61,244 nucleotides of DNA from Candidatus Rokuibacteriota bacterium (GTDB lineage: Bacteria > Methylomirabilota > Methylomirabilia > Rokubacteriales > CSP1-6). Below are positions 29,153-31,261 of this stretch, piece after piece. Position 1 is the first letter of the stretch; each line of letters opens with the position of its first letter. Location of the stretch: assembly GCA_003220315.1 (NCBI GenBank), contig QHSA01000160.1:1-61244 (forward strand), in the 5' to 3' direction. Under the pieces are notes generated by a model, which was given only the letters and a program-made list of their open reading frames with translations, was not told where the DNA came from and did not search any database. The position numbers were made by a program, and so were the translations under genes.

Positions 29153-30384
29153 CCGATTTCGCTCCGCGTCTCCGTCCGCTCGAGGCCTTTCCCGTCCAGC
29201 ACGAGGGCCGCCGGGTCCTCGCCCTCCGCGATCCCGCCGGATACACCGACGCGATCGTGCTACTGCCGCGAGTCCTTCTTGAGATCGTGTCGCTCTTCGA
29301 CGGCGAGCACTCGATCGCCGACATTCAGGCTGCGATCATGCGGCAGCACGGGGAGCTCGTCTCGCGCGAGCGGATCACCGAGATCGCCGACGCCCTCGAC
29401 GAGCAGGGCTTCCTCGACAGTCCGCATTTCGCGGAGCGCCGGGCCGCGATCGATCACGCGTTCCTCGAGGCCCCGACGCGCCCGGCCGCCCACGGCGGCG
29501 GCGCCTATCCGCTGGATCCCTCCGAGATCCACGCGTTCTTCGACGGCTTCTTCGCGCCGCCCGAGGGTCCCGGACCCGTCGACGGCAGCGGGGCCGGCCG
29601 GCCCCGTGTCGCCGGGATCATCGCGCCGCACATCGACTTCCACCGCGGGCGGTCCGCCTACGCCTGGGCGTACCGCGACCTCGCCGAGCGGAGCGACGCC
29701 GACCTGTTCGTCATCTTCGGCACCAGCCATACCGGCATGGCGCATCCGTTCGCGTTGACGCTGAAGGCCTACGAAAGCCCCCTCGGGCAGGTTCCCGTCG
29801 ATCGCGAGTTCACGAACGCGCTCGCGAAGCGGGCGCGACAGGACTGCTTCGGCTCGGAGGGGGCCCACCGGAAAGAGCACTCCATCGAGTTCCAGGCGGT
29901 CTTCCTGCGCTACCTCTTCGCCGGCCGGCGAGAGATCGCGATCGTCCCGATCCTCGCGAGCTTCGCCCACGAGGCGCTCGTCGGCGGCCGACGGGTGGAC
30001 GATGACCCGAGGATCCCGCGTCTCCTCGAGGCGCTCGGCGAGACGATCGCGGCGAGCGGGCGCCGGGTGGCCCTGATCGCCGGCGCCGACCTCGCTCACG
30101 TCGGCCCGCGCTTCGGCGATCCCGAGCCGGTGTCGCCGGCCGAGCTGGCCAGGCTCGGCGGGGAGGACCGGGCGATGCTCGAGGCGGTCGAGGCGGGCGA
30201 CGCCGAGGCCTTCTTCGACCGGGTCGCCCGCGACGGCGACCGCCGCCGGATCTGCGGGCTCTCGCCGATCTACGCGCTGCTCCGCGCGCTCGGGGGCACC
30301 CGGGGCACGCTCCGGCGATACGCGCAGTGGCCGGATCCAGAGGGCGTCGTGACCTTCGCCAGCGTCGTCTTCGACGCGACGTGA
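29149..30384 (+). CDS. Memo-like protein (AmmeMemoRadiSam B) with PqqD-like N-terminal domain
   Basis: 411-aa protein. Residues about 130-411 are a MEMO1 domain: GIIAPHIDFHRGRSAYAWAY, FVIFGTSHTGM, EHSIEFQAVFLRYLF, LIAGADLAHVG. These carry the conserved His/Asp/Cys-type metal site (APHIDF, SHTG, EHS; the cysteine is in RRICGLSPIY). Residues about 35-90 (VLLPRVLLEIVSLFDGEHSIADIQAAIMRQH... EIADALDEQGFLDS) look like a PqqD/RRE-type winged helix. GTG 29149 overlaps the M20 stop. The AMMECR1 and radical-SAM partners of the three-gene Memo system are not in the window. Confidence 0.82.
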   Translation: MTDFAPRLRPLEAFPVQHEGRRVLALRDPAGYTDAIVLLPRVLLEIVSLFDGEHSIADIQAAIMRQHGELVSRERITEIADALDEQGFLDSPHFAERRAAIDHAFLEAPTRPAAHGGGAYPLDPSEIHAFFDGFFAPPEGPGPVDGSGAGRPRVAGIIAPHIDFHRGRSAYAWAYRDLAERSDADLFVIFGTSHTGMAHPFALTLKAYESPLGQVPVDREFTNALAKRARQDCFGSEGAHRKEHSIEFQAVFLRYLFAGRREIAIVPILASFAHEALVGGRRVDDDPRIPRLLEALGETIAASGRRVALIAGADLAHVGPRFGDPEPVSPAELARLGGEDRAMLEAVEAGDAEAFFDRVARDGDRRRICGLSPIYALLRALGGTRGTLRRYAQWPDPEGVVTFASVVFDAT

Positions 30385-30399
30385 ACGCCGGGTCGTGTG

Positions 30400-30846
30400 A
30401 TGGCGGTCCAGTGGGAATTACCCAAGCTCAGGGTCGACGTGAACGGCGACTGGTTCGATGACGACGTGGAAGTCACGCACCCGGGGATCCTCCTCAACCT
30501 GCGCGGGAACCTCCGGCGCGACGCGCAGGGCTACTTCATCCAGACGCGCGTCAGGATCCCTGTCGAGGTCGCGGACGTGCCCTTCGTCGTGATTCGCTTC
30601 GAGCGCGGCGCGGGCGGGTTCATCGCCTCGCTGAACGACGGGGCGCAGGAGCACGTGGAGCCGGCGACGCTCAGGATCGGGCCGGGCGACGTCCCGTACT
30701 GCGCCGTCAAGGGCGGGACGTTCGAGGCGCGCTTCAGCCGCGCCGCCGCGTTCCAGCTCCTCGGGATGGCGGACTACGACGAGCGGACGGGGCGCGGGGC
30801 GCTGCGCGACGGCGCCCGGAGCTACGAGCTCAGGAGGAGCGCGTGA
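30400..30846 (+). CDS. DUF1285-like protein
   Basis: About 149-aa soluble protein with the DUF1285 pattern: LRVDVNGDWFDDDVEVTHP at the start, LRRDAQGYFIQTRVRIPVEVADVPFVVIRFE, then GPGDVPYCAVKGGTFEARFSRAAAFQL. In characterised bacteria DUF1285 proteins are small beta-rich proteins of unknown role. ATG 30400 is used; a GTG lies one codon upstream. Its stop overlaps the GTG of the following broken gene, so both belonged to one transcript. A DUF1285 assignment is moderately firm. Confidence 0.7.
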   Translation: MAVQWELPKLRVDVNGDWFDDDVEVTHPGILLNLRGNLRRDAQGYFIQTRVRIPVEVADVPFVVIRFERGAGGFIASLNDGAQEHVEPATLRIGPGDVPYCAVKGGTFEARFSRAAAFQLLGMADYDERTGRGALRDGARSYELRRSA

Positions 30847-31261
30847 GGCGCACGGTCGGCGGGCTCGGCGCGGCGCTGCTCCTCGGGGCGGGCGGGGTCG
30901 CGTGGTGGCTGACGGCGGGCGCCCAGCCCGCCACCGTGGACGAGATCGGCGATCAGGTTCAGACGCTCCCGCGCGGCCGGCTGCCGGTGTTCGGCGTGAC
31001 GGAGGAGGTCGCACGGCTCCGTGCACTTGCGGCTGCGCGAGTTTGGGTCACACCTCGAACCGTGCCTGCTACATCAAGGCGGAGTCGGAGGGACGGATCA
31101 CCTTCACCAGTCACGCCGCGACGTGAACCCTCTGTATGGACATCACGCGTGACGTGATGCGCCAGCGGGCCGAGGGCAAGTCGCTCTCGGAGATCCGCGC
31201 CGGCATCGACGCGGCGTACCTCCGGTTCGGGCCGCCGACACCGACTCCGCGGCCGAAATGA
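30843..31261 (+). pseudogene. Disrupted PCYCGC-type thiol protein with in-frame UGA at a redox cysteine (candidate selenoprotein)
   Basis: Three pieces of one family member are present. (1) GTG 30843 opens a signal-anchor (LGAALLLGAGGVAWWL) and reads to PVFGVTEEVARL. (2) In another frame from 31019 it reads PCTCGCASLGHTSNRACYIKAE, ending SHAAT. (3) After a TGA at 31124-31126 the same frame continues TLCMDITRDVMRQRAEGKSL... to a TGA at 31259-31261. Family members have a cysteine where the UGA is (C-x-x-C before the DI stretch), so a UGA-selenocysteine giving UxxC fits. The switch between pieces 1 and 2 also loses about 15 residues that normally lie between them. It is thus either a genuine pseudogene or an assembly deletion; see the finding. 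Confidence 0.6.
31141..31159 (+). other. SECIS-like hairpin after the in-frame UGA
   Basis: CATCACG (31141-31147) and CGTGATG (31153-31159) form a perfect 7-bp stem with a 5-nt loop CGTGA. The loop starts 21 nt after the UGA at 31124-31126, with a G among its first two loop positions. Published descriptions of bacterial SECIS elements use about this spacing, stem and loop. It lies in coding sequence (DITRDVM), so chance or codon constraint can also produce it. Confidence 0.5.

Follow-up and report, generated by a model that had tools for sequence, protein, structure and literature searches.

Gene architecture and the in-frame UGA codon

The analysed DNA, a stretch of 61,244 nucleotides (the window), belongs to an assembly of Candidatus Rokubacteria (Methylomirabilota; 4.26 Mb, 98% complete, 301 contigs). 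It contains a gene of the PF13798 (PCYCGC) family with one TGA inside its frame, preceded by a small open reading frame and followed closely by an RNA hairpin (Table 1). The Pfam PCYCGC model matched the window at 31013-31255 across the TGA (E 7.5e-18). The matching stretch scored 74.2 bits and an intact sister copy 96.1 bits, with a curated cut-off of 25 bits. The TGA is located between SHAAT and TLCMDITRDVM, in line with the frame of PCTCGC...CYIK...SHAAT. It stands at the first cysteine of the CxxC of this family, as an earlier note on this DNA had proposed, and aligns with cysteine in homologues, which is the arrangement expected of a bacterial selenoprotein gene. The same note expected 45 further codons; the frame downstream is indeed open, and the count is 44.

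Table 1. Features of the selenoprotein locus in the window
Feature	Position	Strand	Basis
In-frame UGA, very probably read as selenocysteine; first position of UxxC	31124-31126	+	
PF13798 (PCYCGC) domain, TAPCTCGC...SHAAT-U-TLCMDI...PRPK; ends with TGA 31259-31261	31016..31261	+	
N-terminal gene part with GTG start and one hydrophobic, membrane-anchor-like stretch; other frame than the rest	30843..31018	+	ORF 30843-31157; alignment to the starts of intact sister genes
Frame-shift junction; 43 bases of both sister species missing	31018..31019	+	Alignment with L016 and L020
Bacterial SECIS hairpin; stem 31141-31147 / 31153-31159, loop 31148-31152 (CGUGA)	31141..31159	+	
Uncharacterised ORF of 149 aa; its stop and the selenoprotein start codon share GTGA	30397..30846	+	

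The upstream ORF gave no Pfam match. It is kept in sister species together with the overlap, which reads ATGA in one of them, and is therefore probably translationally coupled to the selenoprotein gene. A search of the whole window turned up no other convincing UGA-interrupted gene. The TGA at 30382 was considered as a recoded codon and rejected; it is the ordinary stop of a MEMO gene, with the next ORF in the same frame.

The window copy is a frame-shifted copy of a PF13798/CYCXC selenoprotein gene, disrupted by a small deletion or an assembly error. In the alignment with two sister species it is shorter at about 31018/31019, where the earlier note had placed a loss of 45-50 bases; the gap is real, and the number is 43. 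The gap joins two frames. The alignment thus bears out the suspicion that the N-terminal part lies outside the PF13798 frame, and the window copy does not form a single open frame apart from the UGA. Being out of frame, the gene cannot give an intact protein as assembled, and it may be a pseudogene. The warning that the gene might be a pseudogene or mis-assembled was well placed, as the copies of the sister species are intact. In a fourth genome of the genus (G002) the contig ends within the upstream gene; the absence of the selenoprotein gene there follows from the contig end and is no evidence of loss.

Conservation of the UGA codon in relatives

PF13798 was found in 46 of 60 genomes of the window's order, with TGA in every match. 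Across the phylum, 70 of 95 genomes held 81 PF13798 stretches, all of them with TGA. The site could be read by position in 78 of these stretches, the remaining three being too short or too divergent for the pattern; TGA occupied exactly this codon in 78 of 78 copies, and cysteine in none. By the residues encoded over the hairpin, the phylum copies form three groups: DITRDVM, to which the window belongs, DEALDAS, and DITLDAY. The DEALDAS group (L047, L050-L063, L099-L101) forms a second PF13798 selenoprotein subfamily in the phylum.

Outside the phylum both states of the codon occur. TGA is present in Chloroflexi, a deltaproteobacterium, an Acidimicrobiia, and a Bacillota bin, and TGC or TGT in Acidobacteria, Paenibacillus, Cohnella, Hydrogenibacillus, and others. 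One locus (L168) was missed by the pattern and stays outside the counts; its translation also shows the TGA. The alternation between UGA and cysteine codons that the earlier note wished to see in relatives is found at exactly this codon.

The SECIS hairpin

The window hairpin consists of CATCACG, the loop CGTGA, and CGTGATG, forming seven perfect pairs. It begins at the 15th base past the UGA, the distance from the UGA to the loop is 21 bases, and a G occupies the second loop position. Bacterial SECIS elements are described with a UGA-to-loop distance of 16-37 nt, a stem of 4-16 bp, a loop of 3-9 nt, and a G at loop position 1 or 2 (PMC13188914). The window hairpin (7 bp, 5-nt loop, 21 nt) lies within all these ranges, as the earlier note had recognised from the stem, the spacing and the early G. 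No Rfam family matched it.

The full stem distinguishes the TGA copies from the cysteine copies. All seven pairs form in 79 of 84 TGA copies, the other five having six, and in none of 19 cysteine copies. Within the DITRDVM group the full stem is present in 40 of 41 distinct copies, whereas in 2000 draws of codons from the usage of the same genes it formed in 8.8 copies on average and in 19 at most. The synonymous choices over the hairpin are also nearly fixed. Codons 7, 8, 10, and 11 (UGA = 1) were identical in 95-100% of comparisons with the same amino acid, compared with about 40-90% outside the hairpin. The arginine codon in the loop of the DITRDVM group is CGT in 32 copies, CGG in nine, and CGC in none, although CGC is the commonest arginine codon of the same genes (157 of 326; CGT 19).

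Covariation, which had been suggested as a check, was evident. Across several phyla, 41 distinct selenocysteine copies showed pairing in 98.6% of cells, compensatory double changes at four of the seven pairs, and loss of pairing when the hairpin partner was slid by 1-3 bases. None of 500 shuffles reached the covariation score of these copies; the shuffles leave relatedness in, and the slid controls, the cysteine control, and the synonymous fixation are independent of them. At the hairpin positions of the 19 cysteine homologues, 65% of cells pair, with no clear excess over shuffles.

The hairpins of the DEALDAS and DITLDAY groups differ in sequence, lie at nearly the same place, and have loops beginning with TGGA. 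All 16 distinct DEALDAS copies have a perfect stem; the hairpin sequence is invariant (GAGGCGC TGGAN GCGTCTC) and includes the rare serine codon TCT in each of them. In two Chloroflexi selenocysteine copies (L161:4178-4219 and L172:4178-4219) the loop reads CTTGA; it lacks the early G and is closed by a swapped C-G pair.

Selenocysteine machinery

The window's genome encodes the selenocysteine machinery whose presence the earlier note had made a point to check: selA and selB on one contig, selC (tRNA-Sec, 69.8 bits with a gathering score of 47, anticodon TCA), and selD (L072, G000:C231:16606-17541). This selD carries an in-frame TGA, so the selenophosphate synthetase of this genome probably contains selenocysteine too. 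In the window's order, selA is present in 54 of 59 genomes.

Relation to known families

The family is already catalogued. NCBIfam holds the model NF041379 for the CYCXC (seleno)protein OS_HP4, which was the sole NCBIfam match and was matched at E<=0.001 by 15 of 15 diverse phylum members. OS_HP4 was reportedly described first in a 2007 paper. PF13798 proteins with UxxC are listed among bacterial selenoproteins as 'CYCXC family protein (hypothetical protein OS_HP4)' (PMC13188914, Table 1), and that source names the Olavius algarvensis Delta 1 symbiont as the origin of OS_HP4. The same review also reports 63 predicted selenoprotein genes in one Methylomirabilota genome (PMC13188914). Given these entries, the window gene adds a member to a known family; neither the family nor the kind of system is new.

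The window's subfamily shares with OS_HP4/NF041379 the Pfam family and the position of selenocysteine in UxxC. It differs in having a longer stretch before SHAAT, a hairpin in DITRDVM, and scores of 40-62 bits (window 40.2, sister L016 62.4), which are below the equivalog cut-off of 90 bits although the family is known. The DITLDAY group scores above this cut-off (116-121 bits in four full copies). The Bacillota PCYCGC proteins with cysteine (for example Paenibacillus L150 and L156) resemble the window's family in PF13798, PCxCGC, and CxxC, but have cysteine for selenocysteine and no conserved hairpin. The lipoprotein AOT13_14730 is a Bacillota PCYCGC protein of this cysteine type (PF13798; PMC13068155).

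Interpretation of the UGA codon and the frame shift

The selenocysteine machinery, the TGA throughout the phylum, its alternation with TGC or TGT, the hairpin covariation, and the synonymous fixation together indicate that the UGA very probably codes for selenocysteine in a gene of the PF13798/CYCXC family. Where relatives have an intact gene, SelB and tRNA-Sec would decode the UGA as selenocysteine by means of the hairpin just downstream. We also considered the TGA as an ordinary stop, with the downstream codons left over from the decay of a longer ancestor. The frame shift of the window copy, possibly a pseudogene, would fit such decay. However, the protein downstream is conserved, with differences biased to third positions, and random decay would not hold one stop at one cysteine codon; the uniform TGA of the 78 phylum copies, the synonymous fixation, and the covariation refute this explanation, which we regard as highly improbable. 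Still less credible is a genome-wide reassignment of TGA, for example to tryptophan or glycine. Nothing beyond the in-frame TGA speaks for it, and it is refuted by the use of TGA as a normal stop, which terminates the gene itself and adjoining ORFs of the window; in addition, the selenocysteine machinery is present and the site aligns with cysteine of relatives. For the frame shift, we give slightly less than an even chance to an assembly error, with an intact gene in the real genome. The intact sister species and the number of contigs are consistent with such an error, as are the remaining codons of the window gene: most of their differences from the sisters are at third positions, which is also how the sisters, as intact genes, differ from each other. 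However, a recent true deletion would leave the same picture, and the third-position pattern implies that a deletion, if real, would be recent.

Possible function

The intact protein has an N-terminal hydrophobic anchor, PCxCGC, a nearly invariant histidine, another cysteine, and U/CxxC. It would be small and membrane-anchored, with an extracytoplasmic domain. The AlphaFold model is confident (pLDDT 95.5) and mostly helical, with selenocysteine at the start of a helix. Searches by sequence among solved structures found none, the best match (E 0.07) being judged chance. The top Foldseek match was CcmH at a non-significant E of 0.84, and two CcmH structures were among the first three. CcmH (PF03918; PDB 2hl7, 2kw0) also combines a helical domain with a redox CxxC, but has neither the PCxCGC half nor selenocysteine, and the likeness is not significant as homology. 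An hhalign comparison superposes the UxxC on the CxxC of CcmH (P 1.9e-4, probability 48%; second alignment 7.5%); this comparison was made only once the outcome of the fold search had been seen, and is therefore a lead, not a result. One of 35 members matched PF03918, at E 0.037 and short of the cut-off. The evidence for a likeness of the UxxC half to CcmH is weak.

Selenocysteine in selenoproteins is usually selected for redox chemistry. The Sec-Cys site may act in selenenylsulfide/thiol oxidoreduction at the cell envelope, and as the most likely function we give about an even chance to a membrane-anchored envelope selenol/thiol oxidoreductase, whose role would be linked to metal handling or cytochrome-oxidase assembly. 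Homologues in various lineages lie near genes for DsbD-type reductases, SCO1, a multicopper oxidase, CtaG, cation efflux, a metal P-type ATPase, and Nramp. The window gene and several other Rokubacteria genes are instead next to MEMO, the uncharacterised ORF, and TPP enzymes; that most Rokubacteria neighbours are MEMO and TPP enzymes and not redox genes counts against a redox function. A protein for binding or delivering metal (copper), with selenocysteine and cysteine as ligands and no redox activity, would agree with the PCxCGC, the histidine, the further cysteine, the UxxC, and the metal-related neighbours in relatives. The DsbD-type neighbours and the usual redox use of selenocysteine argue against it, and we consider it unlikely, while the site of an oxidoreductase may possibly also bind metal (copper). 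More speculative still, and in our view rather improbable, is that the exclusively selenocysteine-containing Methylomirabilota branch of PF13798 is a distinct subfamily whose UxxC half is a remote CcmH relative serving envelope copper/cytochrome-oxidase assembly.

The comparison supports selenocysteine in a family that has had only the status of a hypothetical selenoprotein. It also provides a clear example of a bacterial SECIS that covariation and the fixation of synonymous codons can demonstrate, with cysteine homologues as control. Annotation that ends at the UGA misses these genes, in a phylum that always has selenocysteine at this site, with no cysteine form among its copies.
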